Shown piece after piece: positions 5,910 through 56,190 of a stretch of 62,360 nt of DNA. Source of the stretch: Candidatus Sysuiplasma acidicola (GTDB taxonomy: Archaea; Thermoplasmatota; Thermoplasmata; Sysuiplasmatales; Sysuiplasmataceae); assembly GCA_019721035.1 (NCBI GenBank), contig JAHEAA010000012.1, forward strand, positions 1-62,360. Direction: 5' to 3'. Positions within the stretch are counted from its first letter, which is position 1. Every line of letters starts with the position of its first letter. The notes beneath the pieces were generated by a model, which made no database searches, was not told the origin of the DNA, and saw nothing but the letters and a program-made list of their open reading frames with translations. Made by a program: the position numbers and the translations under genes.

Positions 5910-7412
5910 TCAGTGCCTGCGGCCGGGAATTCGAATTCGATATAGCACAACAACGGCAAGCGCGCTGAGCACTACCATGAACGCGCCGACAAACTCGATT
6001 GATTCGTAATATGGCGTATAGGGGTAATTGGCAGAAACATAAAGACCGGTGTGCATCTGGGCAAGGTTTACGGCCGAACTGCCGGTGCGGCTGTAATTCA
6101 GGTTGCCGAGCGGGATTTGCAGCGGAGCCGGAAATATGCCTGATATCGGCGAAGCTCCGACGGATGTAAGGGGGAAACTGATGGAAGAGGGCATCACTAT
6201 GCCGCTGAAATTCAGGTTAAGTGGCGGTCGTGCGCGAGCGCCGGGAATTCCGAATGTGAACATATCTACCGGCAGATCGGACTGCGAAACGAATGCATTG
6301 AGTGCCGGCATCCCCCAGTTATAATCGATGAATGCGAGTATGGAGGCGTGATTCATCGGAGTGCTGGAAATGTAGTTTTCCTTGGCATAAGGGGAAATGA
6401 GTATCAGCGGCACCCTGAAACCGAGCTGCTGACCGCCGACCGTTGGGGGAGGAACATTGTCGTAGTATCCGCCGCCCTCGTCATAGTTGATGAAAATAGC
6501 GGTTGAATTCCATTCGGGACTATTCATTATCTTCCCGACAGTGTAGAGTAGCCACAGTTCGCCGGCAAGCATGCTGTCTGAAGGGTGCTGACTGTACCCG
6601 CTGACCCCGAGTCCTATGGGCATAAAGTAGGAGACTGCCGGAAGTGTCCCGCTCTGCAGTTCGGAGAAGAACGAGGACCAGCTTCTGATGTCAGATGCAT
6701 AACGATGAACTCCGTAGAAATAATCAAGGATAATGGTGCCGAGCGACGGATTTGCCACGTAATAAGACCAAGAAACACCGTAACTGTTCAGTTCGGAGAA
6801 TATTGACTGGGAAAACGGTATGTACGGTGGAGGACCGTAATCATTCAGCACTGGCGAATAGCCGGCAATACCGAACAGCCGGTTGGGCATCGTTGCTGTC
6901 AGCGCGCTTGCAAAGTACATGTCGCCGATTGCATATTCCTCGGCCAGAACCCATTCGATTGCCATTTGTGACGCCGTGAAATAGGTCATGGACTGTTTTC
7001 CAGAGTTGGCCGCGAAGCCGTTCATCCTGCCGTGATTCCAGTCGAGATGGTAGGCAGAATATCCCTCTACGGGGTCCGCCGTGGAGTAGGTGCCCGGCGG
7101 CACTGGTGTGAGACTGCCGGACAGATTGGAACCAATAAGGTTGACAGGCACGCTCAGCTGCGACGTCAGGTTGGAGAATGTGGATGTTCCGCCTAACGGA
7201 TAATTCCCGAATATGTTATCGAAACTGTGGTTTTCCATTGTTATGATTATGACGTGCTTCACCGGCGTCCTTGTACCGGAGGTAACGGCGTGCGAAAAAG
7301 CGACTGGAACCAGCACAACAGGCAGGCAGAGAATCACTGCTGCGAGTGCGGATACCAGCGTGCGGCCGAAGTGCAGCGCATATGCCGTTTCAATTCCCTT
7401 CCATGTGTTCAA
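5910..7412 (-). CDS. Secreted, C-terminally anchored phosphoesterase (acid phosphatase/phospholipase C family)
   Basis: The 500-aa protein has an N-terminal hydrophobic export segment (about residues 18-42) and a C-terminal transmembrane helix (about 470-492) followed by basic residues, so the catalytic domain faces outside. The phosphoesterase (PF04185) signature is clear: VIIITMENHSFDNIFG near the N-terminus, with the metal-binding Glu-Asn, NYDEGGGYYDNVPPP in the middle, and RVPLILISPYAK. The family includes AcpA acid phosphatase and phospholipase C; a surface role in releasing phosphate from esters is likely. The gene follows the six-helix membrane protein by 22 bp on the same strand. Confidence 0.85.
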   Translation of the reverse strand: MNTWKGIETAYALHFGRTLVSALAAVILCLPVVLVPVAFSHAVTSGTRTPVKHVIIITMENHSFDNIFGNYPLGGTSTFSNLTSQLSVPVNLIGSNLSGSLTPVPPGTYSTADPVEGYSAYHLDWNHGRMNGFAANSGKQSMTYFTASQMAIEWVLAEEYAIGDMYFASALTATMPNRLFGIAGYSPVLNDYGPPPYIPFSQSIFSELNSYGVSWSYYVANPSLGTIILDYFYGVHRYASDIRSWSSFFSELQSGTLPAVSYFMPIGLGVSGYSQHPSDSMLAGELWLLYTVGKIMNSPEWNSTAIFINYDEGGGYYDNVPPPTVGGQQLGFRVPLILISPYAKENYISSTPMNHASILAFIDYNWGMPALNAFVSQSDLPVDMFTFGIPGARARPPLNLNFSGIVMPSSISFPLTSVGASPISGIFPAPLQIPLGNLNYSRTGSSAVNLAQMHTGLYVSANYPYTPYYESIEFVGAFMVVLSALAVVVLYRIRIPGRRH

Positions 7413-7434: not shown

Positions 7435-8019
7435 CTATACTATGTTTTCCCGATCTCGTCTGTCCTTGAGAAAACCTGCGATGAGCAGCGGGCAGCTGCA
7501 TATCAGAGCAGCGAGAATGATGAGCGGCATATAACGATAAAACATTATCAGGTATGCCGAAAAAAGTATGATTGAGACAAGCAGGCCGCCGAGCCACACA
7601 GGCAGTGAGGAACGGAAGAATCCGGCCGGCCTGATCGACGTATTGAAGTACACAGATGTGGAAAAAAGAGTGCCGGCCGGGGTGATGAACGACAGCAGCA
7701 ATATCTGCACGTTGTCGAGTATGATAGTATATTGGACATACAGTGCGACCGCGACAAACAGGATAATCGCAGATAGGAGGGATACAAACACGCCTGACAG
7801 CGACCTGCCGGTCCACAAGGCCGCTATGAAAGGATAGAAGAGCGAGCCTGCCACCAGCCCTGTTATTATGTACGGTATAGACTGCGATGTGCCTACGCTG
7901 TTCAGCAACCCTGTGTAATAGAAAAATGAAATACTTATGGTGCCGTTCCACATTGCGAGAAACGGGTAGTAGTGCCGTTCAGCCGATCCCTGCATCGCAG
8001 GAGGAAAGGCAGACTGCAT
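7435..8019 (-). CDS. Six-helix membrane protein, unknown; divergent from riboflavin operon
   Basis: The 194-aa protein has six predicted helices (about residues 18-37, 46-70, 77-98, 102-127, 138-160, 163-183) and ends in a basic cytoplasmic tail (KDRRDREN). I recognise no family motif. It is the first gene of a two-gene unit with the phosphoesterase. Its likely TATA element (8053-8062, minus strand) lies against a dyad that also abuts the ribB promoter, so it could be co-regulated with riboflavin synthesis. A flavin or precursor transport role is only a hypothesis; a membrane partner of the phosphoesterase is the alternative. Confidence 0.65.
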   Translation of the reverse strand: MQSAFPPAMQGSAERHYYPFLAMWNGTISISFFYYTGLLNSVGTSQSIPYIITGLVAGSLFYPFIAALWTGRSLSGVFVSLLSAIILFVAVALYVQYTIILDNVQILLLSFITPAGTLFSTSVYFNTSIRPAGFFRSSLPVWLGGLLVSIILFSAYLIMFYRYMPLIILAALICSCPLLIAGFLKDRRDRENIV

Positions 8020-8826: not shown

Positions 8827-9291
8827 ATGATGCGACATAGACGATGGAGGATAGCCATCGTATGCTCTGAATTCAACGGTGAGATAACATCCAGGATGCT
8901 CGATGAGGCAATGAAGCAGAGCCTGAATGAGGGAGCGGATGTTGTGAATGTCTGCAAGGTTCCTGGTGCGTTTGACATGCCCCTGTTCATAGACAGGTTT
9001 CTGTCAATGAACGATGTCGATGCGGTTGTGACGCTCGGAGCCATCGTAAAAGGCGACACGGACCACGATGATGTCATAGCCAGAGTTCTGGCATCAGCCA
9101 TCACTGAACTTTCGCTGAAATACGGGAAGCCTGTGGCCCTCGGTGTTTCGGGGCCCGGCATGACGTGGGAACAGGCAGAGAGAAGAGCAGAGGAATACGG
9201 CCGGAGAGCTGTGACCGCCGCCGTCTCAATGGCCGAAACCCTTAGAAAGCTGAGTGACCGGAGTGGAAAGAGGAGCCGCAGAGCCAGATGA
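8827..9291 (+). CDS. ribH: 6,7-dimethyl-8-ribityllumazine synthase
   Basis: The 154-aa protein has the lumazine synthase order: IAIVCSEFNGEITSRM (substrate Phe-Asn), KVPGAFDMPL (family VPGA-E-P), GAIVKGDTDHDDVIA (family GAVIRG-T-H-D, with catalytic His) and GVSGPGMTWEQAERR. It condenses the RibB product with the ribitylaminopyrimidine to give lumazine. It starts 9 bp after ribB, and its last 4 bp overlap the amidohydrolase start, so translation is coupled. Confidence 0.93.
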   Translation: MMRHRRWRIAIVCSEFNGEITSRMLDEAMKQSLNEGADVVNVCKVPGAFDMPLFIDRFLSMNDVDAVVTLGAIVKGDTDHDDVIARVLASAITELSLKYGKPVALGVSGPGMTWEQAERRAEEYGRRAVTAAVSMAETLRKLSDRSGKRSRRAR

Positions 9292-10535
9292 ATGCCAGAG
9301 CACACGGCGGCAATGACCTGTTCATAAAAGATGCAGCCATGCTGCTCGGCCCTGAACTGGAGTTTCAGCCGTCGACGAATATTTCGATAGTCGGCGGAAA
9401 GATAAGTGAGATCGGGGCAGCACGCAGGAAAGGCGGACAGGCCGTAGTGACAGGAAAAGGATTGCTCGTCATGCCCGGTCTTGTGAACGCACACATACAT
9501 CTGAATGATGCACCGTTGAAAGATGCAGGTGGGGGGAGGAGTCTGGAAGAACTCATTCATCCCGTGACCGGACTGAAAAAGACCGGTCTGAGCGCTCTGG
9601 GCATGGAGGAAAGAGTCAAAAGGATGTCGGCGGCGATAGACGAAATGGTCAGAGGAGGAATAACCGGTGCCCTGGATTTCCATGAAGAGGACATCTCCAT
9701 AATCGAACGTCTGAGGGAGGTCAACAGCAATGCGGAAATACTGGTCATCCTCGGCAGACCGCGGAGGTATTTCAGCCCGGAGGAAATATTGTCAAACAGG
9801 GGGTTCGACAAAGACGAGACAGACGCGTTCGTCAGGGAGCGGCAGAAATTTGATGGCACATGTCTGAGCGGAGCCAATGAATACAGCAACAGGGCAATGG
9901 AACAGATTGGCGAAGTCAGGAAGGGGCTCACCGGTATTCATGCGGCCGAGAGCTCTGCCACACTGGAGCGTTCGCTGAGGATGACAGGTGAAACGGAGGT
10001 GGAGCGCATAGCAGCCAATCTCAAACCCGATTTTCTTGTGCACATGACCAGCGCGACGGAGAGCGACATAGACATAGCCGCAAAATCGCGATATGGCATA
10101 GTGTGCTGTCCGCGGTCGAACGCAATGTTTGGCGTTGGAACACCGCCTATTCCCCGGCTCATTGAATCGGGATTCAGCATAGCGCTCGGGAGCGACAATA
10201 TCATGGTCAACTCACCAGACATGTTCAGGGAGATGGATTTTGCAGCGAGGATCGCGAGAAGTTCGGCACTGGACCCTCTCGCCGTCCAGGCGAAGGAGGC
10301 GTTGAGAATGGCAACAGTGAACGGGGAAGGGCTGATAGCCCGGAGCGCGGGCATGGGTATAGTTGAAGGGGCGAAGGCAGATCTTGCGCTGATGAGCATG
10401 GGCAGCACCAGGCTGTCCGGCACGCATGACATTCATTCCGCACTGGTTCACAGGGCAGGACCCGGAGATGTTCTGGGTACTGTGAAGTCGGGCAGGCTGC
10501 TGTTCAGGAGAAGGGAACTGAGTCTGGAGAAGTAA
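9288..10535 (+). CDS. Amidohydrolase-superfamily deaminase inside the riboflavin operon
   Basis: The 415-aa protein is a metal-dependent amidohydrolase of the SAH/chlorohydrolase (ATZ/TRZ) deaminase group. All metal and catalytic residues are present: H69 and H71 (NAHIHLND), H218 and E221 (IHAAES), H252 (VHMTS) and D303 (GSDN). The N- and C-terminal beta-sandwich pieces are also visible (FIKDAAMLL and TVKSGRLLFRRRE). It overlaps ribH by 4 bp and is followed by ribE after 1 bp, so it belongs to the riboflavin operon. The archaeal route needs a pyrimidine deaminase that is not the bacterial RibD; this is a positional candidate. A guanine- or SAH-type deaminase is the alternative. Confidence 0.85.
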   Translation: MNARAHGGNDLFIKDAAMLLGPELEFQPSTNISIVGGKISEIGAARRKGGQAVVTGKGLLVMPGLVNAHIHLNDAPLKDAGGGRSLEELIHPVTGLKKTGLSALGMEERVKRMSAAIDEMVRGGITGALDFHEEDISIIERLREVNSNAEILVILGRPRRYFSPEEILSNRGFDKDETDAFVRERQKFDGTCLSGANEYSNRAMEQIGEVRKGLTGIHAAESSATLERSLRMTGETEVERIAANLKPDFLVHMTSATESDIDIAAKSRYGIVCCPRSNAMFGVGTPPIPRLIESGFSIALGSDNIMVNSPDMFREMDFAARIARSSALDPLAVQAKEALRMATVNGEGLIARSAGMGIVEGAKADLALMSMGSTRLSGTHDIHSALVHRAGPGDVLGTVKSGRLLFRRRELSLEK

Positions 10536-33487: not shown

Positions 33488-34219
33488 ATGAATAGCATAC
33501 AGAGATACGGCCTTGGCATTTTGTCCGGCCTTGCAGTGCTGGCCGCCTTCGGTGCCTTCCTTCATTCGTCTGATCCACTGATTGCCATTTTTGTGGCTTC
33601 TCTCGTTGCAGGAGCTGTCGCATCGGGGAATCTCAGGGCCGGCGCGACGCTGTCAATGATTGCCATATTCACGATTACTGCCTTCTCGGCGCTTATTACA
33701 ATGGCTGGTCTTTTCACCGGCAGTGCATTCTATGACTGGCCCTTTGCGGATGCGGTTGCGGTTTATGCGCCATATTCCGGAACTTCGGCCGAGATTTTGG
33801 GACTGATTGAGGCAGTAATCCTCAGCCTTGCGGGAGGAGCGGCTGGAAGCGGCATAACGACTGCGATACAGCATCTACTGCCAAGGAGAGGTGAAACAGG
33901 TGAAAAGCAGCCCGTGGAGCTTGACAGACTCAGCAGGCGGCTCGAAATGCTGAACAAGGAGAAGGGGAAACTGGAGGAGGAATTGAGAATATGTGAAATG
34001 ATAGAACAGGGGGCAAAGACCCGAATAGCGAGAAATGAGATTACACAGAGTGATTACGATTCGATCATCTACCGAAACGACAACTACAAACTGAAACTCA
34101 AGACAAGGATGGAAAAGGTCTGTTCTGAAATACAGCAGGTCGAAGTCGACATGGATGCCAGAAAGAAAGCCAGGGAAAGCGGCAGCCAGGAAAAGACGTC
34201 TCCCGGCAGAAGCGCGTGA
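33488..34219 (+). CDS. Membrane protein with C-terminal cytoplasmic coiled coil
   Basis: The 243-aa protein has about four hydrophobic helices in residues 8-130 (YGLGILSGLAVLAAFGAFL, IAIFVASLVAGAVAS, LSMIAIFTITAFSALITMAG, ILGLIEAVILSLAGGAAGSG). A charged coiled coil follows (about residues 145-235, LDRLSRRLEMLNKEKGKLEEE and so on). I recognise no family. It starts a run of envelope genes, with 16 bp to the surface protein downstream. A TATA box, palindrome and short upstream frame precede it. Confidence 0.7.
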   Translation: MNSIQRYGLGILSGLAVLAAFGAFLHSSDPLIAIFVASLVAGAVASGNLRAGATLSMIAIFTITAFSALITMAGLFTGSAFYDWPFADAVAVYAPYSGTSAEILGLIEAVILSLAGGAAGSGITTAIQHLLPRRGETGEKQPVELDRLSRRLEMLNKEKGKLEEELRICEMIEQGAKTRIARNEITQSDYDSIIYRNDNYKLKLKTRMEKVCSEIQQVEVDMDARKKARESGSQEKTSPGRSA

Positions 34220-34235
34220 ACTGCGAGGTTTTAAC

Positions 34236-36254
34236 ATGCTAGGCAAACTGATTAAGACCAGAGCAGGGAGGCGCATTGTCGTGACACTGGTCGTCGCCGT
34301 ACTCGTCATAAGCGCGATTGCACTGTACATGAGCAGACAGACAGGCAGAACACTTCCCTCGACGGCACCGCCAGGCAACGCGGTGACGTCTGGTTATCCG
34401 CAGACGGTAAACCTCACGACGAATCCGGCGCAACACTTCAAACTGACCTTCACTGTCCTTCAGAGATATGTGTCAGGCATAACGATGAGCATCGATACGG
34501 CATCTGATGTTACCAACGCAACTGCGTATTTTGTGACATCCGGCACGAACTGGAACACTGCCAATAAAGGCAATATTGTGAAGTCGTCAGCCGTAGACAT
34601 GCAGGCAGGATTCACCGATACGAACGTTACCCTGGTTGTAACGGGCCGTGGCAACGTTTCCGGCTGGATAGGTATATACCAGAATGCGCTGCTGGGGTCT
34701 GTTTCGCCGTCTTTCGTTAAAGTGAATGTGACATCATACCACAACAGCAGCTCTACAACGCATCCTGGACAGCACGTAAAGTCATACATCCGCCTGGACA
34801 ACCTACCGGCGACCATAACGGTGCCATCGGGAGCGCGGGGAACGTTTCAGGTGAACTACACGACGAGCCACGTCCCGGGACCCCTTTCATGGGCGACCAA
34901 CATCACCTGGATCGGCCTCAGCATGGTGAACGCGTCTGCAGAGGACGCCAACTATACTGCACCTTATGTGTCAACCAACACCACATTCACTGCGAACATT
35001 TCAGTGGGTTACAATAGTACGGTGGGAAACTATTCAACACTGCGTATCAACGTTCTCAATTCAAGCGTCGTGGTGCCACCGCCTATACGGTCTGGCCACA
35101 TTTCGCTAGACAACCTTCCGGCAGCCATAAGCGTGCCCGTAAACAGCACGACACCGTTCATCATAAATTACACCGCAGTGAACGTCACCTTGCCGCTGAA
35201 CTGGATAGCAGGCATCAGCTGGGTACAGATTTCCACAGTAAACAGCACGGCGGCGGTAGCGAACATTACACCGCCGTCAACACTGCAGTATAACAACACT
35301 TCGGACAACTATGGCACATTTGTCATAAACATATCGGTGACATCCGCGAACAACATATCGAACCACTCGACACTCACGGTCACTGTCACAGGGCAGCCGC
35401 CTATACTGTCTGGCCACATTTCGCTAGACAATCTTCCGGCAGCCATAAGCGTGCCTGTCAACAGCACGACACCGTTTATAGTGAATTACACCACAGTGAA
35501 CGTCACCTTGCCGCTGAACTGGAAGGCCAGCATCAACTGGACACTAATTTCTACATTAAACAGCACGGCGGCGGAGGCGAATATTTCACCGCCTTCGACA
35601 TTGCACTACAACAGCACAACAGACAACTATGGCACATTTGTCATAAACATATCGGTGACATCCGCGAACAACATATCGAACCACTCGACACTCACGGTCA
35701 CTGTCACAGGGCAGCCGCCCCGTAACATAACGGTGCCCGGAAATGGAAACTACTTTGTGTACACGTATCAGAACCTGTCGGTAAACAAGACGTTCGAGAA
35801 CAGAGGAGACAGGATGTATGCCAACGTGACGGCAGAACTGATCGATGCATTCCTGGTCAACGGAACGACAAAGATAACGTCGTTTTACAATGCAACGATT
35901 GTGTTCCGTGTCGTCGTAGGCAACGTCTCTTCCTCGGACGACAGGCACCACTGTGACGATGGTCAAAGTGCAAGAGATAGCGAGCATGAACACAGCGGTG
36001 ACGGCAACGGCTCGGGTGCCATCACGGTGAAGATAAAACTGTGGCTGAAAGTCAGCACCTCAGGCAATACCGTCACAAACGTGTCCATGGTCAAGATGTC
36101 GGTGCATGTGGACCACGGAAAGCACAAGGGTCAGATTGAGAACAACACCGCGGTCAAGCTGGTGGACATGCCTGCTTTCCCGCTGACGGTGGTGTTCTAT
36201 TCCACTGGACCGCCGGTTAACATGCTGGCACAGATTGAGGGTGCTCAGACATAA
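34236..36254 (+). CDS. Repeat-bearing, heavily sequon-rich surface protein
   Basis: From the ATG at 34236 (GAGG upstream) the product is 672 aa; an in-frame ATG at 34155 overlaps the previous gene. One N-terminal helix (RIVVTLVVAVLVISAIALYM) anchors it, and the remainder lies outside the cell, very rich in N-x-S/T. Three homologous domains of about 105 residues follow one another, each opening SYIRLDNLPATI- or GHISLDNLPAAISVP-like: one diverged (about residues 185-285) and two nearly identical. The C-terminal part has an acidic/His-rich loop (SSDDRHHCDDG) and no second helix. Function is unknown; an S-layer or adhesin role is an inference. Confidence 0.75.
   Translation: MLGKLIKTRAGRRIVVTLVVAVLVISAIALYMSRQTGRTLPSTAPPGNAVTSGYPQTVNLTTNPAQHFKLTFTVLQRYVSGITMSIDTASDVTNATAYFVTSGTNWNTANKGNIVKSSAVDMQAGFTDTNVTLVVTGRGNVSGWIGIYQNALLGSVSPSFVKVNVTSYHNSSSTTHPGQHVKSYIRLDNLPATITVPSGARGTFQVNYTTSHVPGPLSWATNITWIGLSMVNASAEDANYTAPYVSTNTTFTANISVGYNSTVGNYSTLRINVLNSSVVVPPPIRSGHISLDNLPAAISVPVNSTTPFIINYTAVNVTLPLNWIAGISWVQISTVNSTAAVANITPPSTLQYNNTSDNYGTFVINISVTSANNISNHSTLTVTVTGQPPILSGHISLDNLPAAISVPVNSTTPFIVNYTTVNVTLPLNWKASINWTLISTLNSTAAEANISPPSTLHYNSTTDNYGTFVINISVTSANNISNHSTLTVTVTGQPPRNITVPGNGNYFVYTYQNLSVNKTFENRGDRMYANVTAELIDAFLVNGTTKITSFYNATIVFRVVVGNVSSSDDRHHCDDGQSARDSEHEHSGDGNGSGAITVKIKLWLKVSTSGNTVTNVSMVKMSVHVDHGKHKGQIENNTAVKLVDMPAFPLTVVFYSTGPPVNMLAQIEGAQT
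35084..35719 (+). repeat. Two tandem 318-bp coding repeats
   Basis: Copy 1 (about 35084-35401) and copy 2 (35402-35719) have a 318-bp period (106 codons). Long stretches are identical at DNA level, including the beginning (GCCACATTTCGCTAGACAA) and the last ~95 bp, while the middle differs by point changes. This indicates recent in-frame duplication or ongoing gene conversion; the first domain of the protein is a much older copy. Confidence 0.85.
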
Positions 36255-37403: not shown

Positions 37404-40271
37404 TCAGGTTTCGCCCTTCTTTCTAAGTATCGCATAGCTTACGACTGCCGCGATGACAATCATTGCTGTTATGATCAGCAGCGTGATCCTGTTCTGGAAC
37501 AGCTGTAACAGGCCCAGCCCCTGGACCACCACATGAGTGGTCACATGAAGCACATCGCCTGCAAGATCATGCACCGTCAGTCTGACGGTGAAATTGCCTC
37601 CCGAGGAGAACACAAAATTGGCCGGATTCCCAAACGCCGTGTTTCCTCCTCCGAAATTCCACAGATATGAGTAGCCGCCGGCTCCGCCGGTAACGGTTGC
37701 AACGAATGTGACGTTATATGGAGCAACGCCGTTTGCCGACGGTGAAACGTTGATCAGACCGCTCAGCGGATTGTAGACGCGTATTGTTTCGGAGGCTACC
37801 GAGTGGCTGCTGTAGAAATCAGTGACGCTCAGGGTGACTGTGTAATTACCGACCGAGCTGTAGTTGACATAGAGGTATTTTCCGCTGAGTGAAAAACTGC
37901 CCGACTGGTTTGTGTAAGTCCATGAGTACGCAAAGGGAGCTTTACCGCCATTATTAGAAGCTGTGAAGAGAATGTGCAGCGGGTAACTTCCTCCCGTCCT
38001 GTTGGAGAGTATTTCTGCCACCAGGTGTGGAAACACAGTCACGCTGAACAGAGATTGTGCGGTGTAATTGTCCGGCGTGCTGCCGGTCACGTTTTCGTAA
38101 GCGGTAACAAGCGCCGTGAAGTTGCCTCCGTAGACGTACGTGTGCTTCACGGTGGGACTCGACGTGGTGAGATATCCGCCGTCTGCAAATGCATATCTGT
38201 AATACTCTGTTGAAAGGGTTTGCAGACCTGAAACTGATGTGGAAAAGGAGACTGTGAGGTTGGCGTCACCGGACGTTGGACTGCCTGACAGGCTGGCTTT
38301 AAGTGTATTACTCGGATTGCTGTAAGCTGTCACGTTGAAATACGAGACAGAAACCTCGGACACGTTGTCCCGCACTGTGAGTCTTATTGTATAATTACCC
38401 GCATTGTATATCTTGAGAATATTCTGCAGCTGGTAGCTGAACGGAGCGCCGAAGCTGCCTGCAGTGCTTCCGTTGAGCGCCCATGACACATTATAAGGGC
38501 CCAGGCCGCCGCTTATCTCCGCATAAAGCGAAACGTAAATGGGAACGTCTCCCGCAGGCGGAGAACCTGTGGCGATTGCTTTGAGCGGTTTCGTGGGCTG
38601 TTTTGCAAGTATGAGCAGAAGATCATAAACAGAGGGAGTGCCTACGCCGGTGACCATATCATATCCCTGATGAGCAGAATAGTAGCCGTTATACCCCTGT
38701 GTTATGTCATGAAATGCTACAGAATAATTTGAGCTGTTGAGAATTCTGTAGAAAGATGGATTCGCGAATCCCATGGATGGCTCGCCCTTCATAGCCCTGA
38801 ACTGATTTTCCAGCGACATTATGCCGCCCCATATGGGCGAGCCAAAACTAGTTCCGCCGGCCTCGAGCCATGATGAGTTATAGAATACAAAATAACCGGA
38901 TGAAGGCTTTGCGTTCAGCGAAACATCCGGAACGGCGCGCCCGCCGGTTGAAGGAGTGCCTGGTCCGACCTGCCAGTAGGGCTTTCCGAAAACACTGCTT
39001 ATGCCGCCGCCGCTCTTGTTCCATCCGGTTTCTGAAGATATGGTTATACCGCTACCAGTCTTTGAGAGATTGAGCCAGGTTCCGCCGACCCCTGTTACAT
39101 ACGGCGAGGAAGCCGGAAAATCAGGCGTCGGTGAGGACGTATTATCATAAGCGCCGAAATCTCCGCTTGCGGCAAAAATCGTAATGCCCTGTGCGGCGGC
39201 CTGTTTGAATATACCGTTGTCCTGTGTAATTGTGGAACTGGGCGTCACGCTCTCTGGAGTTCCCCAGCTCGTAGTTACAACAGATGAAAGATTCTTGCTC
39301 ACTACGTAGTTGAAGAGCTGTGTAAATGTTCCGAGTTGTGGATTGATTCCCTCCACTACGTTGATAGTTGAATTGGGAGCAGTTGCCGACATCCATTCCG
39401 TATCCAGCGTAGTTTCGAGATTCAACTGGGTGGTGCCGCCATAAGGCTGCACCACGTTGATGCGATTGGCGACGATGCCGAATGTGCTGTCGAATGTCTG
39501 TATGCTTGCGTTGTCGAAGGCATATGCGGTGATGATTGAAACGGAGACGCCCGAACCGCTGTACCCGTTCCTGTACGCTTGTGTGAAGTTGTATGCTGCG
39601 TGGATTGTTGCCGGATTGTAAGGTGGTGTTGGATTGAGACCTGTTGGGGGAGAATAGAGAGAGGACTGAGAGTGAACCGCTCCGAGCATAGGATGAGCGG
39701 CCTGAACGTAGTCCTGCAGACCCTGTACTCCGCTTATCAGTGAAGCAATACCGGCAGGAAGCGTAACCATACCGCCTGCAGCATAATATTCATGGCCGTC
39801 AATGTTGAATGAGTATGGCGTTACATCGAAGGCTGCGTGCAATTCGGCCGGCGTTGCAGACGCTGCAATCAGGAGTCTGTTTTGTGAAACGTGAGTGACA
39901 TTCATGCCGAAACTTTCCAGATAAGCTGTCACTGTTGACACTTCCCCCGAAGACGGTGAAAATAACGAATCAAACCTGGCAGGAGAAAGCCACTTGTGGT
40001 ATTGAGTGCTCCCTGGAGTCGATTGCGATCGAATCAGGGACGACAGACTTGCCTGGTGCCTCAGATTGAGTGACATGAGTATGCTTACAGTTCCTCTGTT
40101 CATGGTATGAATATTATGAGCTCCTGCGGGTATGACCAGTGTGTCTGAGGGCACAGGCAAGCGGTACTGCGTATTGGAGGATGCAGTCACGGGTGCCATT
40201 TGCAGAAGTGAAATTGAAATTAACGCCACAGTTATGAGGGCTGAAGCACATTTCTTCATTGTTCGTCCCAA
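37404..40271 (-). CDS. Secreted sedolisin (S53) serine-carboxyl peptidase with PKD-like repeats
   Basis: The 955-aa protein has a signal peptide (about residues 6-30, ALITVALISISLLQM), a pro-kumamolisin activation domain (about 40-190), and the S53 catalytic domain. Its Glu/Asp pair is E286 and D290 (LETTLDTEW), the oxyanion Asp is in SGDFGAYDN, and the nucleophile S475 is in GGTSFGSPIWGG. Four beta-sandwich repeats of PKD type follow (about 565-925), then a C-terminal helix with a KKG tail that anchors the enzyme. Sedolisins are acid-active endopeptidases, so this probably feeds on external protein. It is monocistronic. Confidence 0.92.
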   Translation of the reverse strand: MGRTMKKCASALITVALISISLLQMAPVTASSNTQYRLPVPSDTLVIPAGAHNIHTMNRGTVSILMSLNLRHQASLSSLIRSQSTPGSTQYHKWLSPARFDSLFSPSSGEVSTVTAYLESFGMNVTHVSQNRLLIAASATPAELHAAFDVTPYSFNIDGHEYYAAGGMVTLPAGIASLISGVQGLQDYVQAAHPMLGAVHSQSSLYSPPTGLNPTPPYNPATIHAAYNFTQAYRNGYSGSGVSVSIITAYAFDNASIQTFDSTFGIVANRINVVQPYGGTTQLNLETTLDTEWMSATAPNSTINVVEGINPQLGTFTQLFNYVVSKNLSSVVTTSWGTPESVTPSSTITQDNGIFKQAAAQGITIFAASGDFGAYDNTSSPTPDFPASSPYVTGVGGTWLNLSKTGSGITISSETGWNKSGGGISSVFGKPYWQVGPGTPSTGGRAVPDVSLNAKPSSGYFVFYNSSWLEAGGTSFGSPIWGGIMSLENQFRAMKGEPSMGFANPSFYRILNSSNYSVAFHDITQGYNGYYSAHQGYDMVTGVGTPSVYDLLLILAKQPTKPLKAIATGSPPAGDVPIYVSLYAEISGGLGPYNVSWALNGSTAGSFGAPFSYQLQNILKIYNAGNYTIRLTVRDNVSEVSVSYFNVTAYSNPSNTLKASLSGSPTSGDANLTVSFSTSVSGLQTLSTEYYRYAFADGGYLTTSSPTVKHTYVYGGNFTALVTAYENVTGSTPDNYTAQSLFSVTVFPHLVAEILSNRTGGSYPLHILFTASNNGGKAPFAYSWTYTNQSGSFSLSGKYLYVNYSSVGNYTVTLSVTDFYSSHSVASETIRVYNPLSGLINVSPSANGVAPYNVTFVATVTGGAGGYSYLWNFGGGNTAFGNPANFVFSSGGNFTVRLTVHDLAGDVLHVTTHVVVQGLGLLQLFQNRITLLIITAMIVIAAVVSYAILRKKGET

Positions 40272-42807: not shown

Positions 42808-45800
42808 TCAGTGTATGTATGCTGTGGCTTCCGAAAGCCAGTCCTCCTTGTAAATGGACCTCTGGGAAGGAAGAAAGACAAAGAATCTGGATCCTTTGCC
42901 GAGCACACTTTCGGCCCAGATTTTGCCGCCATGCCGTTCGACGATTAGCTTTGTGATAGGCAGGCCGAAACGGAAACCTGTACCGGAATGCAGTATTGAA
43001 GCGTCGACGACATGATAACGATCGAAGATAAACGGAAGGTCTTCCTCTGAAATGCCTTTGCCGGTGTCTGCTACAGTGAGCAGTACACCATCCGCCTCAT
43101 TTCGGAGGGACACCGATATCCTGCCTCCCGGAGGTGTGAATTTGATTGCATTGCCTATAAGATTGTTCGCCACGCGCTTTATCAGAGGCGCGTTTGCGTT
43201 TATCCTTCTTGTATTCCTGTCAATATCCATTTCCAGCTCGATAGGTTTGGCGTTGAGCTGCGGCGAAACCAATGCACACACTTCTTCAACAACAGGCGCC
43301 AGTGAGGTCGATGCCATTTCTGTTTCCAGGAGTAGTGCCTCCATGCGGGTGAATTCCAGCATGTTGCTTATGATCTCGTTCAGTTCGGTTATGCTGGCAA
43401 GCAGATTCTCTATGTTCTTTTTTTCCGGCTCGGTGAATTTGCCGACCCTGCCCATCCTCATCAGCTCGATGTAAACACGGATCGATGTGAGAGGCGTCCT
43501 CAACTCATGCGCCGCAATGCTGGAAAAGTTTGACCTAAGCGTATCGAGCTTGCTCAGCTTGTTCAGCGCATCATAGGTTGTCCTGAAATTCCTCGAATTT
43601 TCTATTGCGGTTGCAAGCAGTGCGGCAACCGACTCGATAAAGCCTATGTCCGTCTCTTTGAACGCATTCTCGGCCGATGTATTGAAGCATACCAGTATGC
43701 CCAGCATTTTTCCCGCAAACGACACAGGAACGCCAAGCATACATTTGACCGGCGTACCGCGATTCAGCAGCCCCAGGTCATAGCGCTGTTCGTCAGGCAT
43801 CCGGGAAAGAGCTTCCGCTGCGGATGAAGCGTCGGACATGTAAAAGTGACCCGCAGAATCGGCCGCAAGCAATGCGAAACCGCTCCGCCTTGCTTCGCCG
43901 GAACGAGCGGCATTGGAAGGTTTACGCATGACCTCATCAATGATTTCTTTCGGTGGGCCAGAGATGGATGCAACATTCATCGCACCCATATCATCTTCAA
44001 GAAAGAGGCATGTGAGGTCTGCAGATACGAACGTGTTGACTTCCTGCGTGGCGTAGTTTAGTATGACCGGAAGTTCAAACGTGGAACTGATGTTTCTGAC
44101 CACCCTCAGCTCTGAAGCAAGCGCATTAAGCATCCATCCCATTTTTGTTCTGTTAGCCCTGTTGTCCATGACCGTTGCATACGCATCTGCAATGGTTGAT
44201 GCAACACGCGTATGGGAATATCCGAGTCCTCTCTGTTTTTCATCGAAGAGGAAAAAACCGGAGCGCTGCGTGTTCTGCGTTATTGGCACAGGAACGAGCA
44301 GGACATCACCCACCGGTATTGAGCGCGGCGAGCCACATCTGCCGTCGTCCGGTGCGTCCAGGCTGATTACAGCAGCGGAGCGGCTTTCAGCACTGCCGGC
44401 GGTGAGTTCTGAAATCATGCCAATACAATCGTTGACGGCATCACTGTTCAGCGACTTCAATGAAGGACTGCTGCCCTCTATAACGACGGCACCATTCTCG
44501 CCAATTCTGTATAGAATAGCATACTTCATGCCCAGTGCTTTTGCCATCAATGAGGCAAATCTGGAAGATACTTCAGTGTCATCAAATTCCCACCTGTCGT
44601 TTTCCCACCTGACCGAAGAAAAAATCAGATTCAGGAAACTGACGTCCATAGACGGACCTGAGTCTGGTGAGAACGACAGAAGTTTTATCTGAATAAGTTT
44701 GGTGAAAGCTTTTGAAAGCTGTACCAGTGCGGCCCTTTCTGCGTCATGCGTTGCGGTTTCATCTGAATATCCGAGGAAAACAAGGTGGTCTGAACCGCTG
44801 CCGCCGTAACTGTCTCGTATGAGTATCACATCCCATGCAACGTATGGTTCAGAGCCCACTTTCAGCAGTTTTGAATATGTTCCGTCACGATCGGTGATAT
44901 GACGTATTACAGAGCCGTCTGACTGCGCCAGTCCATGCAGACCCAGATCATCCGGACGGATGATGCCTGTAGGCTTGGTTAAGTCTTCTGGGTATGCAGC
45001 GGTAAACTCATAATTCTCTCCGCTGGACTGGTTGTACAGAATACATGCGGCGGCACCAGAAAATGACAAAAGGAGTCTGCAAAAGTCGGCAGAAAGCGTG
45101 TGAATATCGGCGTCCGTATTTACTCTGCCGATCTCGTCCAGCATGTTTCTGTTTGCAAACCCTATTTCACGTTCAATAGAGAGGCGTCTGCGGAACGAAG
45201 ACAGCATACGCATGTTCGCCATAATCGGTCTCAGAAGCTCGCATGTCACGAGGGCTTCGGCTCTCGGCTCGCTGGAAATTACCAGCAGGAATGAGAACGG
45301 CTCTGTTCCCTCTCTCAAGCAGAGAATAGTGCAGGTCTGCTCGTCCCCCTGCAGGAATCCGGAAAATGAGGAGATGACGTCCCTTTTCACCCTGTCCGAC
45401 TCAGTCTCCGCGATTTCGAATGTGAGATTATCGACATGCCGCATCAGCAGTTCTATCGGCAGAGTATTTATCTCAGGAATACTCGTCGAAGCGGCTCCGC
45501 TGCTGGCAAATGAAAGGCATTCAATACTTGCCCGTTTCTCGAAATATGCCACGACCCTGAAACTGGAAAAACTTCCGGCAAGCATGGCCGCGCCTGTTAC
45601 TGAGCGATCAAACTTGAGGCCGGAAGAGGAAAAACTTGAAATCAGACGGTTCAGCTCAGCGAGCCTGTTTCTCTCTCCGGATAGTCTCTGCTTAAGCAGT
45701 ATTTCCTCCGATTTTGCAAGAAAAGCCGAAGAAAGCGGCGTGAGAGCGGACTCAATCCCGATGCTCTCTCCAGGAAGCAGAGACTTTTCGACGGAGAGTA

Positions 45801-47088
45801 CTCTCAGCGTGTCGTTCCCCACAGCATAAGGGATAAAACACATCATCCTTTCCTGAAGCCACGCCCCACGTGCGCCATCTTTAGCGTCAGCCTGAGCGGT
45901 TTCAGCAGGCACATACAGTATCACGGGAAGTCTTTCGCGTGCAACTTTCTCCAGATTGATATCATCTGACTGTAGAGAGGCGGAACCGTTTGCATTTTCG
46001 CAAAGACACGACTTCAGGATAGTTCCCGTTATTTCCGAAGTTCTGGACAGTTCCAGGATGCAGTATCGCTCAGTTTTGCCCAGCAACCGGTTCATCTCCG
46101 ACAAGAAGAGCGATTCCAGCGTTTGTGTGTCTGCTGCGGTGTTTATAGAATAGAGCACACTTCTGAGCGATCTCGCACGGGAACGACTCAGATTCCTGTC
46201 CATGAAAGCGATTCCTTCCGAGAGGGACATCAGAAAACTGCTCTGGATGTACGATTCAACATTATGAATACCGAGTGCGTGCGTATCTCTCAGGTCCACA
46301 AGGAACAGGGCATCAAAACCGCCTGGCAGCCTGACTGCATTGGCTGTCATTCCTGTAATCCTGGATGAAAGCGCTGGAAATCCGTTCGTTTCCCCGCCCC
46401 GGAACAATTTCGGCGAACTTCCATGGACAAGAGACACCATTTCCTGAACGCATGGTGCCTCTGAAATCAGACTATTGGCAATATGCAGTGCGTCCCCATT
46501 GCCCCCCGCGATTGAGACGCCACCCTGCTTGACGAGAAGGACGGCGAAACCCCGGCCTCTGAATGTCCTGGCGATTGTGTCGCCCGCCTCAACAAGCATC
46601 GACGTGACGGAGGTCGATGCATTTACCGGCTGCAGCCTGGCAGACCGTGCGATTGTATCAATAGTCGCGGATTGCAGCGCCAGCTCGTCTATCAGTCGAA
46701 CGGGGCCATCAAACATGTTGCTGATATCGTCATTCTTGTTGAAGTCGGGGGCTGTTTCGCCGTCATGACGTAGAAAGACAGCATAAGACAGACGCCTGGA
46801 TACCTGACTGAAGACTCTTCTGACAACCGCTCCGTTGCCTTTCCATTCATCAGCACCAGAATGTTCAATCAGCCGGCGGACCTGCGCTATCTCTTCCTGA
46901 AGCCGATCGTCACTGCCTGAAAATGAGCTTGCTATTTCCTCATTATCCAGATAAATTGAAAACAGGCAGGAAGAACAGCCGGTGTAAGATAATGCGGCAG
47001 CGGCGGAAAAGGATGCGGCCCTACTGGCATATTCGGTCACTTCGGCCGAAACAGGGGATTCCGCAGAAAGGTCAGAACCGACAGACAT
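42808..47088 (-). CDS. Very large cytoplasmic multi-GAF-like histidine kinase, 1426 aa
   Basis: The C-terminal 250 residues are a classical kinase: HisKA with phospho-His H1194 (SSIAAHELRTPLTS), N-box NNLIGNAIKFTPPGG, G1 DTGKGISEEDLPFIFDRYH, and G2 GTGFRFGLPITKLIVERHGG. The preceding ~1170 residues have no clear transmembrane helix and read as a chain of sensory domains. The one at about 1000-1170 is a recognisable GAF (FVSADLTCLFLEDD, LGVPVSFAGKMLGILVCFN, AVALLATAIENSRNF-like end); several upstream repeats have similar helix-strand patterns. It should sense internal small molecules, redox or light. It is divergent from three KaiC-like ATPase genes across 300 bp, and the nearest receiver is at 56537. 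Confidence 0.88.
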   Translation of the reverse strand: MSVGSDLSAESPVSAEVTEYASRAASFSAAAALSYTGCSSCLFSIYLDNEEIASSFSGSDDRLQEEIAQVRRLIEHSGADEWKGNGAVVRRVFSQVSRRLSYAVFLRHDGETAPDFNKNDDISNMFDGPVRLIDELALQSATIDTIARSARLQPVNASTSVTSMLVEAGDTIARTFRGRGFAVLLVKQGGVSIAGGNGDALHIANSLISEAPCVQEMVSLVHGSSPKLFRGGETNGFPALSSRITGMTANAVRLPGGFDALFLVDLRDTHALGIHNVESYIQSSFLMSLSEGIAFMDRNLSRSRARSLRSVLYSINTAADTQTLESLFLSEMNRLLGKTERYCILELSRTSEITGTILKSCLCENANGSASLQSDDINLEKVARERLPVILYVPAETAQADAKDGARGAWLQERMMCFIPYAVGNDTLRVLSVEKSLLPGESIGIESALTPLSSAFLAKSEEILLKQRLSGERNRLAELNRLISSFSSSGLKFDRSVTGAAMLAGSFSSFRVVAYFEKRASIECLSFASSGAASTSIPEINTLPIELLMRHVDNLTFEIAETESDRVKRDVISSFSGFLQGDEQTCTILCLREGTEPFSFLLVISSEPRAEALVTCELLRPIMANMRMLSSFRRRLSIEREIGFANRNMLDEIGRVNTDADIHTLSADFCRLLLSFSGAAACILYNQSSGENYEFTAAYPEDLTKPTGIIRPDDLGLHGLAQSDGSVIRHITDRDGTYSKLLKVGSEPYVAWDVILIRDSYGGSGSDHLVFLGYSDETATHDAERAALVQLSKAFTKLIQIKLLSFSPDSGPSMDVSFLNLIFSSVRWENDRWEFDDTEVSSRFASLMAKALGMKYAILYRIGENGAVVIEGSSPSLKSLNSDAVNDCIGMISELTAGSAESRSAAVISLDAPDDGRCGSPRSIPVGDVLLVPVPITQNTQRSGFFLFDEKQRGLGYSHTRVASTIADAYATVMDNRANRTKMGWMLNALASELRVVRNISSTFELPVILNYATQEVNTFVSADLTCLFLEDDMGAMNVASISGPPKEIIDEVMRKPSNAARSGEARRSGFALLAADSAGHFYMSDASSAAEALSRMPDEQRYDLGLLNRGTPVKCMLGVPVSFAGKMLGILVCFNTSAENAFKETDIGFIESVAALLATAIENSRNFRTTYDALNKLSKLDTLRSNFSSIAAHELRTPLTSIRVYIELMRMGRVGKFTEPEKKNIENLLASITELNEIISNMLEFTRMEALLLETEMASTSLAPVVEEVCALVSPQLNAKPIELEMDIDRNTRRINANAPLIKRVANNLIGNAIKFTPPGGRISVSLRNEADGVLLTVADTGKGISEEDLPFIFDRYHVVDASILHSGTGFRFGLPITKLIVERHGGKIWAESVLGKGSRFFVFLPSQRSIYKEDWLSEATAYIH

Positions 47089-52433: not shown

Positions 52434-53492
52434 TCAGCTGCGAGGGGCTCCGCAGACAGGGCATTTGAGGGCTGTCGAATCTATCAGCGTTCCGCAGAAC
52501 TGGCATTTCACCTTCACAACTTCCTTGACAACAATCTGCTGTACCGCCGGCTGTTCGGGAGTGAGGTTTATCGGCGGCGGTCCCGCAGGACGCTGAGCCT
52601 GCTGCTGGACGGGCGCGTAGGAGTAACCGACCCTTCCATCACCGGGGTGCCTTGGCAGCTTCTGCCTGTTCCTTTTTGAACGCGAGCGGAAGACCAGGAC
52701 TGAGACGATGACCAGCACAACGACGATAACCAGGGCCAAAAGCAGCATATCAGCGGTGCTGAGAGATGACGGCTGGGGGGTTGGAGCAGCAGCCGGCGTC
52801 AGCGCGTAGCTCGTGCCTGTCACATATAGAATCTCCGTATAGGTGAAGCCGTCGCCTAATGAGTTGCTGTCATGTTCCGTGTAAAAATAAGCGACTATGA
52901 AACCGGTAGACGGATCAAAATAGGTCTTCCAGTCATAAGTGGCAGTAAAACTGCCATAGGCATCGTTTCTCTGGTATGAACCAGTCCCCTGAGCGTATAT
53001 TGTTTTAACATAACCGTCAGTTGAAGGAAGCCTGTAGCTGTAGTCCGTTGAGACAATCGTCATCTGCGTGTTCAGCAGATAGAATTGACTTGACCTGCCG
53101 AGAGAGTTATTCATGTAGAACCATACATACGGATTGGAGTAGCCTGTCTGGTTGTCCGTCCCGTTGACATACCTGTATGTATGATACGAGAAAGTGAAGT
53201 TGCCTGCCGAGCTTCCACTGCTGTATCCGCCAGTACTGTTGTGGTATGTCCAGAAATACTGATAGAATGCGGAGGCAATGTCTCCGGGGTTCAGTGCACT
53301 GATGCGCTCAGTGCCGTTGACACTCTGCTGCTCCGTGTACCCTGTGTAGTTTCCCTTCCCGCCGTTGACTGTTATCGCCTCGTGGTAGTTGAAGTAATCA
53401 CCAGCCTTCGGGACATTGTGTGCTGTCGCAGCGGGCGGCAGCAGAAGCATCGATGTGATTAAGAGTGCAGCCGCCGCCTTCCAATACATCAT
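52434..53492 (-). CDS. Membrane sensor-like protein with cytoplasmic zinc ribbon (third gene of overlapping operon)
   Basis: The 352-aa protein has a signal peptide (about residues 4-24) and an outer domain of about 210 residues rich in Tyr, Ser, Thr and sequons. One transmembrane helix (about 248-270, MLLLALVIVVVLVIVSVLVF) is followed by a basic stop-transfer stretch, a Pro/Gln-rich linker, and a C-terminal zinc ribbon (CQFCGTLIDSTALKCPVCG). An external domain joined to an internal ribbon suggests signal transfer or membrane recruitment. Its start overlaps the previous gene by 4 bp, so it is made with the 510-aa protein. Confidence 0.7.
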   Translation of the reverse strand: MMYWKAAAALLITSMLLLPPAATAHNVPKAGDYFNYHEAITVNGGKGNYTGYTEQQSVNGTERISALNPGDIASAFYQYFWTYHNSTGGYSSGSSAGNFTFSYHTYRYVNGTDNQTGYSNPYVWFYMNNSLGRSSQFYLLNTQMTIVSTDYSYRLPSTDGYVKTIYAQGTGSYQRNDAYGSFTATYDWKTYFDPSTGFIVAYFYTEHDSNSLGDGFTYTEILYVTGTSYALTPAAAPTPQPSSLSTADMLLLALVIVVVLVIVSVLVFRSRSKRNRQKLPRHPGDGRVGYSYAPVQQQAQRPAGPPPINLTPEQPAVQQIVVKEVVKVKCQFCGTLIDSTALKCPVCGAPRS

Positions 53493-55021
53493 CCGACAAA
53501 TCCTCCGAGGGCATGGACGTGTCCCGGATGGGCTCCACCGATGCCGCTGAAGGTAGAATAGTAGGAAGAATGCACAATCATCATTGGCATGTATAGAGGA
53601 ACGAACGGTCGTGAGGCGGCATAGGTGAACTGTACCGGAGTCTCAGTGATCCGTGCAGTGCTGTCGAGGTCCCTGACAAGCTCGTTCTTGATGCCGTGTA
53701 TCATTCTGACTGCAAGAGCGATCAGCTCCGACTGTTCAAGTCCCGTCGCCCTGACACCAATGATGGAGTAGGTTTTCTCGAGCAGGTTGAGTGTCTCGTT
53801 TGCCTCCATGACCGGTATTGAAGTGAGTATGGCTGCGGCGACGAGGGGATACTCTAGATAGTGTTTCAATCCCTCCGTCACAATTGCCAGCTTGCTTTGA
53901 AATCCGTCGGCAGGCAGATCGGACACTGCGAGGTACGCGGCCGACAGTTCCGTGTCTTCAGACACTTCAAAGCCCCATGAATTGAAGAGTGCCCTCATAG
54001 CCATGAATTTCTTCGTCAAATCGTCTGGGGAGCTGTTAACAATCGACATGAGCGCGGCAGATTCGTAGGAGTTGGTGAGCTGCCTGAAATTCCCGAATGT
54101 GTCCAGAGGAAATGTACCGTCGTGCCTTTTTCCGAAGAACAGTATGGAAGATACTCCGGCAGAGAGCTCTTTTGGAACGCCAAGCCTGTGTCTGACTTCA
54201 TGGTCAAGCTCGAAAAGCTCAGGGATTGTGCTGGTCAGATCGGCGCCCGAACATGCAAGGACCTCTGATGCAGAGAGCCTGTTTTCCATGTTGTGCGACA
54301 TCTTCTCTATGCCGTCGAAAGCCTGAATAAACCGTGCGTCAAGAGCCTTCGGATCTCCCTGCATCTTTGAAAGACCGATTGCTGTGCTCCACATTTCAGA
54401 CGCCCCGACATCCGTGAGTGCCTGAGTGAGAAAACGGAAATGATCCCTTCCCCGGTCTGCTATGCCCCCGAGCTCGCTCAGCGTCTGGTTCATCTGCTGC
54501 ACATAGGATGAAAAATCGGTGTCCGAAACCCTGTACATTCTGATGCCGAGGTCTTTCATGGAGGCAAGCCCCTGTTCTGTCAGGGCAACATGCGCATCCC
54601 CATATGGAACGAGCTTGTCGAGGAGCGATTTCCTGTTTATGTACGAGGCAAGCATAGACTCCTCTCCAGAAATATCCGAATCCATTTTTTTCAACGCATC
54701 CTCTTCCTGCTGTACCTTCTGCATCTCCTCCTCTTCCTTTTCCCTGCCATGAGCCACACGGAAGAAAATAGAGTGAACCTCTCTGAAATCAGGTTCAAAA
54801 GCCTCTCTCTGCTGCTGTTCCTTCTGTTTCCGCTGCGCTATGTCACTGGAGAGCTGCTCAATTTGACCGATGTCGGCAGTCAGTTTGTCATAGTCGTCCT
54901 TTGTCAGCGACTGTATGTACCCGCCGGTCTGCAGCATTTCCAGATCCGCTGGAGAGACCTGCGCGGTTATGGTCCTGCTCGAAATCTGGTTGAAAAAATA
55001 GTACACGTCAGAACACTTCAT
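53489..55021 (-). CDS. Unknown 510-aa coiled-coil/helical protein (second gene of overlapping operon)
   Basis: The protein is soluble and mostly helical. A short N-terminal part is followed by an E/Q/K-rich coiled coil (about residues 50-135, including REKEEEEMQKVQQEEDALKK). A long alpha-helical body (about 150-460) comes next, with LSAGVSSILFFGKR, LVAAAILTSIPVMEANETLNLLEKTY and similar segments, and a Gly/His-rich tail (GIGGAHPGHVHALGGFVG). I cannot assign a family; a distant likeness to bacterial DUF4003-type proteins is only an impression. It overlaps both neighbours by 4 bp and so is stoichiometrically linked to them. Confidence 0.6.
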   Translation of the reverse strand: MKCSDVYYFFNQISSRTITAQVSPADLEMLQTGGYIQSLTKDDYDKLTADIGQIEQLSSDIAQRKQKEQQQREAFEPDFREVHSIFFRVAHGREKEEEEMQKVQQEEDALKKMDSDISGEESMLASYINRKSLLDKLVPYGDAHVALTEQGLASMKDLGIRMYRVSDTDFSSYVQQMNQTLSELGGIADRGRDHFRFLTQALTDVGASEMWSTAIGLSKMQGDPKALDARFIQAFDGIEKMSHNMENRLSASEVLACSGADLTSTIPELFELDHEVRHRLGVPKELSAGVSSILFFGKRHDGTFPLDTFGNFRQLTNSYESAALMSIVNSSPDDLTKKFMAMRALFNSWGFEVSEDTELSAAYLAVSDLPADGFQSKLAIVTEGLKHYLEYPLVAAAILTSIPVMEANETLNLLEKTYSIIGVRATGLEQSELIALAVRMIHGIKNELVRDLDSTARITETPVQFTYAASRPFVPLYMPMMIVHSSYYSTFSGIGGAHPGHVHALGGFVG

Positions 55022-56190
55022 ATCATATCCCCGTCAACAATCGCAAAAGACTTATTTAGATTTTCTTCGTTCAATTTATTCTTAATTGTCAATATTAAAG
55101 AACCCCCGCGGTCAGATACGTCTATGAACGGATCACTCCTCAGAGCTTCCCTGACAAGTATCCTGAACTGTGTTCTTCTGTCGCTAGCTCTGCCAAAGCG
55201 TGAAGCCCTCTCGTGCTCAATCTGTTCGTAGGCAAACATGAATTCATACAGTGACCGGTACAGCTGTTCCTCAATCTTATCAATGACATGATCTGCGTCG
55301 ACAGTTCTTTCCTCGATGCCTTCAAGATCAACAAAATAGACAGTACCGTCAGGAGAGATCACTGCATCCTTGTCAAGCCACACATCGTTGAAATCAAGGC
55401 CGGTGTATCTTCCGTTGTCCTTCATCGCCAATGTCCTGGGGAAAAGTGTGAGAAGGGCAATGCAACTCCTGATGTAGTTGCATTCGAACTCATATGCCCT
55501 GTCGTTGCTGTCAACCCGGAACATGTCGAATATCCTCCTCATATTTCGCCCTATGACATTCCCCGCATGGAAATAGACTCTTATGTTGGACGGCACCAGT
55601 CGAATCTCCTGAACTATCCTGCCGCTGAACCTTCTGTACCAGAATATCTTCTTCAGTTCCATTTCCATATCTTCAGGAAGGGGGACTACACGTATAACGG
55701 GAGCAATCCTGAAGCCGTTTATTGAAGTTATGTCTGCCATCTCGGATACCCTGAGCGCGGTGGCCGCATGTTCAAGCCCCTGGCCGCCGTATGGCGATCC
55801 TCTCAGCCAGAGCTCGCCTGTTATGAACCTTGCCGGTACCCCGTTTGCCTTTCGTATTTTGTCCCTCAGAACCGCATCGCCTGTAAGCGATGCCACGTAT
55901 TCGGGGTCAAGCAACCGGAGCGAGAAGGGATCAGTTGTTGAACCAATCCCCTTGACCGAGAGATGAAAGTCCGTCCCGTCTATATTCGCAACAGGTTCCG
56001 GCGAAATCGCCCCCCTGTTATCGTCTTCGATGAACAGGTCGCTTCCATCAGGCGTACCTGCATTGAGCGCGGTGAGGTTTTCGGGAAGATAAATTGAGTT
56101 GAAACCGGGGAGAGAGGAGAAATGTCTGTTGGTGATGATCTCCTTGGCAGCATAGGAGTAGAGCCTCAGGTTCGTTCCGAGTATTTCCAC
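55018..56190 (-). CDS. Possible kinase-like-fold protein (first gene of overlapping operon)
   Basis: The 390-aa protein is soluble. Two stretches resemble a diverged kinase fold: HLSVKGIGSTTDPFS in the N-terminal half (a lysine and Gly-rich loop, reminiscent of SelO-like LKGxG), and GLDFNDVWLDKDAVISPDG plus TVYFVDLEGIEERT, which read like a catalytic loop and a DFG-type Asp in APH/SelO-like kinases. The canonical HRD or HGD is absent. This is a weak, pattern-based idea; the family is not recognised. It starts a three-gene operon with ATGA overlaps and has no close upstream partner. Confidence 0.5.
   Translation of the reverse strand: MEILGTNLRLYSYAAKEIITNRHFSSLPGFNSIYLPENLTALNAGTPDGSDLFIEDDNRGAISPEPVANIDGTDFHLSVKGIGSTTDPFSLRLLDPEYVASLTGDAVLRDKIRKANGVPARFITGELWLRGSPYGGQGLEHAATALRVSEMADITSINGFRIAPVIRVVPLPEDMEMELKKIFWYRRFSGRIVQEIRLVPSNIRVYFHAGNVIGRNMRRIFDMFRVDSNDRAYEFECNYIRSCIALLTLFPRTLAMKDNGRYTGLDFNDVWLDKDAVISPDGTVYFVDLEGIEERTVDADHVIDKIEEQLYRSLYEFMFAYEQIEHERASRFGRASDRRTQFRILVREALRSDPFIDVSDRGGSLILTIKNKLNEENLNKSFAIVDGDMI

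Follow-up and report, generated by a model that had tools for sequence, protein, structure and literature searches.

A riboflavin biosynthesis operon with the gene order ribB–ribH–amidohydrolase–ribE is located in the analyzed window of the Candidatus Sysuiplasma acidicola genome, the window being the whole stretch of 62,360 nucleotides (Table 1). The ribB start listed is the most likely one, rather than the ORF start at 7972. The amidohydrolase, designated P0001, is encoded by an intact ORF of 415 aa that runs from ATG to TAA with no internal stops. The ribH gene ends in ATGA, which contains the amidohydrolase ATG and thus creates a 4-bp overlap, and a single base lies between the amidohydrolase stop and the ATG of ribE. 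Both junctions, as well as the completeness of the gene, agree with a preliminary sequence-only reading of this DNA, which had described a complete amidohydrolase embedded in the riboflavin operon, overlapping ribH by 4 bp and preceding ribE by 1 bp. Within the same taxonomic family, the gene order is kept in all seven loci that reach ribE (our genome and six relatives; the seventh relative was left out of the count because its contig ends before ribE), with amidohydrolases 49–75% identical to P0001, which argues that the placement of P0001 is not due to chance.

Table 1. Coordinates of the rib operon and its upstream elements in the window
Feature	Start	End	Strand	Basis
palindrome TGTTACAACAAATATTGTAGTAACA, candidate rib operator	8062	8086	.	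conservation and score; putative function
TTTATAA, candidate TATA box	8089	8095	+	follows the palindrome, kept in relatives; putative function
ribB	8122	8817	+	TIGR00506, 193 bits (cut-off 177)
ribH, 6,7-dimethyl-8-ribityllumazine synthase	8827	9291	+	TIGR00114, 128.5 bits (cut-off 84.6); PF00885, 3.1e-38
amidohydrolase P0001, MJ0699/HVO_2483 clade	9288	10535	+	NF005552, tree, operon conservation, RibD exclusion, AlphaFold2 model
ribE, bacterial-type riboflavin synthase	10537	11154	+	TIGR00187, 181.9 bits (cut-off 156.6)

Upstream of ribB lies a palindrome of 25 bp, the 22-mer core of which is near-identical before ribB in all seven loci of the taxonomic family that were examined, our own included. 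It scores 34/36, whereas none of 20 shuffled windows exceeded 16.9, and is the sole strong site within the window; the TTTATAA element is situated about 27 bp upstream of the ribB ATG. No match to the palindrome was detected near arfC or ribA of the same genome, and no Rfam elements were found near the rib operon. Judging by its sequence and conservation, the palindrome may be an operator recognized by a riboflavin regulator.

Several other ORFs of the window were recorded. Near the rib operon, on the opposite strand (5910–7412), lies the gene of a PF04185 phosphoesterase-family protein with an N-terminal hydrophobic stretch. A histidine kinase of 1426 aa (42808–47088, minus strand) carries C-terminal GAF, HisKA and HATPase domains behind approximately 1000 N-terminal residues with no Pfam match, and a 955-aa protein with pro-kumamolisin activation and PKD domains (37404–40271, minus strand) is probably a secreted acid protease. 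Three overlapping ORFs of 390, 510 and 352 aa form an operon-like group (52434–56190, minus strand), the last showing a weak zinc-ribbon match and the other two no Pfam match; an ORF of 699 aa (34155–36254, plus strand) likewise has no Pfam match.

Family membership and predicted fold of P0001

The Pfam matches of P0001 are confined to PF01979 (8.2e-33) and PF07969. The same search returned neither the RibD-type PF00383 zinc domain of the cytidine-deaminase fold nor the creatininase family PF02633, which we take to be the family of ArfB. The catalytic set is full (H69-x-H71, H218-x-x-E221, H252 and D303), as the sequence-only reading had stated, and both this HxH..HxxE..H..D pattern and the fold are those of a mononuclear deaminase of the amidohydrolase superfamily. 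Among NCBIfam models, NF005552 (PRK07213, named 'chlorohydrolase') fits best with 271.6 bits, the runner-up reaching 118.9. The score lies under the NF005552 cut-off of 294 bits, as does that of the Haloferax HVO_2483 orthologue (287.6 bits), while a Methanothermococcus and a Nitrosopumilus member score 537 and 328 bits; by NCBI's own rule P0001 is not a member of NF005552, and the clade is wider than the model. Against the models of SAH, MTA and 5'-deoxyadenosine deaminases, P0001 stays below every cut-off (NF004995, 87.7 bits, cut-off 567; NF005557, 107.5, cut-off 522; NF012037, 32.8, cut-off 779).

A quick tree was built from 53 rows of the family and six rows of the SAH-deaminase type. It splits the two groups with an SH-aLRT support of 100 and places P0001 inside the family, grouped with haloarchaeal, methanogen and thaumarchaeal members; P0001 occupies a branch of its own, and its nearest neighbors by path are Nitrososphaeria and Bathyarchaeota proteins, not members from its own phylum. 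The signature residues D74, K97, R157, S194, R276, N304 and M306 are all present in P0001; each occurs in 49–53 of the 53 family rows, and the SAH-type outgroup mostly differs at these positions. The Arg of the DFRE motif is found in 50 of 53 rows, this residue being common in the clade and not known to be essential; it is replaced by His132 in P0001 and in all its close relatives, and by Ser in two further members (L007 and L036). Judged from the alignment, the Arg-to-His change means that substrate details, or specificity within the pathway, could differ in P0001.

AlphaFold2 modeling of P0001 gave a mean pLDDT of 93.1 and a TM score of 0.80 against 4gbd. In a fold search with this model, the closest solved structures were adenosine, MTA and SAH deaminases, AtzA, an isocytosine deaminase and guanine deaminases; the PDB copy searched held no solved structure of the MJ0699/HVO_2483 clade. 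Isocytosine and guanine deaminases strip the 2-amino group from a 2-amino-4-oxopyrimidine ring. The isocytosine deaminase Vcz (7ww2, 8is4) and the guanine deaminases share the P0001 fold (TM 0.75–0.80) and the chemistry predicted for it, although their identity to P0001 is only about 14–20% and their substrates are free bases without a sugar phosphate.

The shared superfamily and fold, with SAH/MTA and adenosine deaminases among the nearest solved structures, would also suit an enzyme acting on a nucleoside or base such as SAH, MTA, 5'-deoxyadenosine or guanine, whose place in the rib operon is accidental. We regard this as extremely improbable. That type of enzyme is already supplied by a separate SAH/MTA-deaminase-type paralogue elsewhere in the genome (L003), which scores 490 bits with NF004995, and the tree parts the P0001 family from the SAH type with full support. 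Moreover, an accident is unable to explain the rib operons in several lineages, the exclusion of RibD and the co-loss with ribH described below. On these grounds, an SAH or guanine deaminase identity for P0001 was rejected.

Rib operons, RibD exclusion and ribH co-loss across archaea

The association with rib genes recurs in other archaeal lineages. About 30 Nitrososphaeria loci show the order ribE–ribB–ribH–arfA–amidohydrolase–arfC, or as much of it as fits on the contig; the amidohydrolase and arfC reading frames mostly overlap, and the gene that separates ribH from the amidohydrolase encodes GTP cyclohydrolase III (PF05165, 3.9e-49 in L050). As in our genome, the Nitrososphaeria amidohydrolase (e.g., L100 and L050) thus lies in an operon with ribB, ribH and ribE, and the L100 protein is 36% identical to P0001 over nearly the full length; however, the gene order differs and arfA and arfC are included, whereas in our genome arfC lies elsewhere and GTP cyclohydrolase II replaces arfA. 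A Bathyarchaeota locus of 3.9 kb (L040) comprises a RibC-like/lumazine-synthase-like protein, ribH, arfA, the amidohydrolase, arfC and, adjoining arfC, a creatininase-family gene. In family f5 of the same class as Sysuiplasma, ribH and the amidohydrolase lie within about 2.5 kb of each other in several genomes (G039, G042, G056, G103, G205, G213 and G215). A Nitrososphaeria-type rib operon was also seen in JACMIO010000019.1 (L081), a record titled 'bacterium' that is probably a mislabelled archaeal MAG.

In the Haloferax locus L060, genes for a universal-stress protein, a biotin ligase-like protein, biotin carboxylase and aspartate-semialdehyde dehydrogenase come after the family member, the names other than biotin carboxylase having been read by eye. 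Since HVO_2487 is asd and the member lies four genes from it, the member is HVO_2483 by synteny. P0001 belongs to the same clade as MJ0699 and HVO_2483 and shares their metal and acid residues and the D74, K97, R157, R276 and N304 signature; it is 32–33% identical to the clade members from Methanothermococcus and Haloferax. Unlike these proteins, it lies within a rib operon, carries His for the DFRE Arg, scores below the NF005552 cut-off and is partnered by GTP cyclohydrolase II instead of GTP cyclohydrolase III.

Across the phylum, 295 genomes were surveyed: the NF005552 family (E ≤ 1e-40) was present in 159 and full-length RibD (above cut-off, including the deaminase part) in 93, and none of them contained both. 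The zero overlap holds at NF005552 sensitivity, profile A1 having been applied outside the 93 RibD genomes. The Fisher p value of 1.5e-43 ignores relatedness and is not to be taken at face value, as the counts lack phylogenetic independence. Used by itself, NF005552 at 1e-40 misses part of the family: the clade profile A1 detected it in 17 of the 34 ribH-positive genomes that had previously shown neither enzyme. Of the 17 genomes still showing neither, ten come from the two families that normally carry RibD, and the other seven, ribH-positive drafts outside the RibD lineages, are most simply explained as incomplete assemblies. Co-occurrence of the orthologue with rib genes and its absence where a RibD deaminase exists, proposed as a check in the sequence-only reading, were both observed: the family turns up in genomes that have ribH but no RibD, and in none of the full-length-RibD genomes.

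RibD carriers are spread over five family codes (f22, f28, f30, f36 and f45), and several independent replacements are likely. Three singleton carriers (G007, G017 and G192) have ribD within about 3 kb of ribH on the same contig, an arrangement resembling bacterial operons; these are likely separate acquisitions of bacterial rib operons. The contigs concerned (G007:C98, G017:C94 and G192:C64, from different families) have a high-scoring ribH and no amidohydrolase.

The amidohydrolase is also lost together with ribH. Eight genomes of the same class without ribH lack both the family and full RibD, with best family matches that are weak and SAH-deaminase-like; several of these genomes are single-contig and 99% complete. 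Among 26 carriers of the family in other archaeal groups, full-length RibD was found in none and the reductase half in 25.

The deaminase step of the riboflavin pathway

The known steps from GTP to riboflavin all have their usual enzyme in this genome, except for the deaminase and the phosphatase. The reductase ArfC is a stand-alone protein of archaeal type (TIGR01508, 214 bits, cut-off 186) that lacks a deaminase domain. GTP cyclohydrolase II scores 248 bits with TIGR00505 (cut-off 206), and no GTP cyclohydrolase III was detected in the genome. The stand-alone, bacterial-type GTP cyclohydrolase II gene is located at G000:C1:162899-163393 (L145:1405-2082, minus strand). A RibD deaminase domain was found neither here nor in the seven relatives; since all eight genomes of the taxonomic family lack it, the 95% completeness of our genome is not the reason. 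With no RibD deaminase, a stand-alone ArfC and GTP cyclohydrolase II, the deaminase step is vacant.

One other protein could be considered for this step, namely the only PF00383 protein of the genome (C1:31503-31856), with the amidohydrolase as an accessory. RibD and Rib2 deaminases share the PF00383 fold, and such a protein is present in most relatives with weak RibD matches of 33–39 bits; the RibD-deaminase matches of the eight genomes are all of this weak, dCMP-deaminase-like kind. Nevertheless, its best match is ComEB/dCMP deaminase, it lies away from the rib genes, scores far below the RibD cut-off, and its involvement would leave the exclusion pattern of the amidohydrolase unexplained. 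It was rejected as the riboflavin deaminase, a role for which we give it next to no chance.

In the literature, the archaeal deaminase step is treated inconsistently. A bifunctional RibD is ascribed to archaea in PMC9478397, whereas PMC8305020 gives a bare prediction: it credits Rodionova et al. 2017 with predicting a role of MJ0699 and HVO_2483 in riboflavin synthesis, and its table enters them between arfC and the phosphatase gap, a position that we read as the deaminase step. The claim in the sequence-only reading that no archaeal enzyme is firmly assigned to this reaction therefore stands insofar as no published enzyme assay or biochemical proof for the clade was found in the accessible literature, but requires the amendment that the role had been predicted for the orthologues in 2017.

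Very probably, as judged by comparative sequence evidence, P0001 is a metal-dependent enzyme that carries out the deamination step of archaeal riboflavin synthesis, with 2,5-diamino-6-ribitylamino-4(3H)-pyrimidinone 5'-phosphate as its predicted substrate. The missing deaminase proposed in the sequence-only reading is thus supported, at the level of a prediction, by RibD exclusion, ribH co-loss and recurrent operons; of the findings named there as counting against it, neither a RibD-type deaminase in the same genome nor an unrelated substrate such as SAH emerged, the latter type having its own paralogue. Bacterial-type GTP cyclohydrolase II would make the diaminopyrimidine nucleotide, ArfC would convert its ribose to ribitol, and P0001 would then take off the 2-amino group of the 2-amino-4-oxopyrimidine. 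By analogy with the deaminases of isocytosine, guanine and SAH, C2 may be attacked by a water bound to the metal (ligands H69, H71, H218 and D303, with H252 and E221 assisting), with departure of ammonia; a phosphatase would subsequently supply RibH and RibE. The suggested order of steps is consistent with the report that archaea reduce first and deaminate second (PMC13028884), and the archaeal-type ArfC fits this order.

Two variants of a role within the pathway were weighed against this assignment. In the first, P0001 would carry out another hydrolysis, either the deformylation of the ArfB step or the missing dephosphorylation; the pathway does have a phosphatase gap (PMC8305020), amidohydrolases can cleave amides, and some relatives cleave phosphoesters. 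This is nonetheless very improbable. GTP cyclohydrolase II deformylates unaided (PMC9478397), so ArfB is not needed in this genome, and in L040 a creatininase-family protein stands by arfC. Furthermore, RibD, a deaminase and reductase that supplies no phosphatase, replaces exactly the pair formed by the P0001-type protein and ArfC, a substitution indicative of deamination. The ArfB and phosphatase identities were accordingly rejected. In the second variant, the step would have shifted in this taxonomic family, e.g., to deamination of the ribosylamino compound before reduction, as by RibD. His132 in all relatives and the bacterial-type RibA and RibE are compatible with such a shift, but ArfC is of the archaeal type, whose route reduces first, and the other signature residues D74, K97, R157, R276 and N304 are retained, and we consider it unlikely.

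Deamination by P0001 would be the same reaction, removal of the 2-amino group, as that of bacterial RibD and fungal Rib2, whose PF00383 fold is unrelated. In the broader picture, which we consider probable, most archaea use the amidohydrolase as their riboflavin deaminase, a non-homologous replacement of RibD/Rib2, and Sysuiplasma joins an archaeal reductase and the P0001 deaminase to a GTP cyclohydrolase II and a riboflavin synthase of bacterial type in a hybrid pathway, its operon standing behind a conserved palindromic operator. We know of no earlier description of this hybrid arrangement or of the palindromic operator. While the deaminase role had already been predicted for orthologues, the wide exclusion and co-loss evidence, the recurrent operons, the hybrid pathway and the palindrome are new. 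Deamination is among the few steps in archaeal riboflavin synthesis that still await an assigned enzyme, and the comparative evidence would justify renaming the 'chlorohydrolase' family, which is present across several archaeal phyla.
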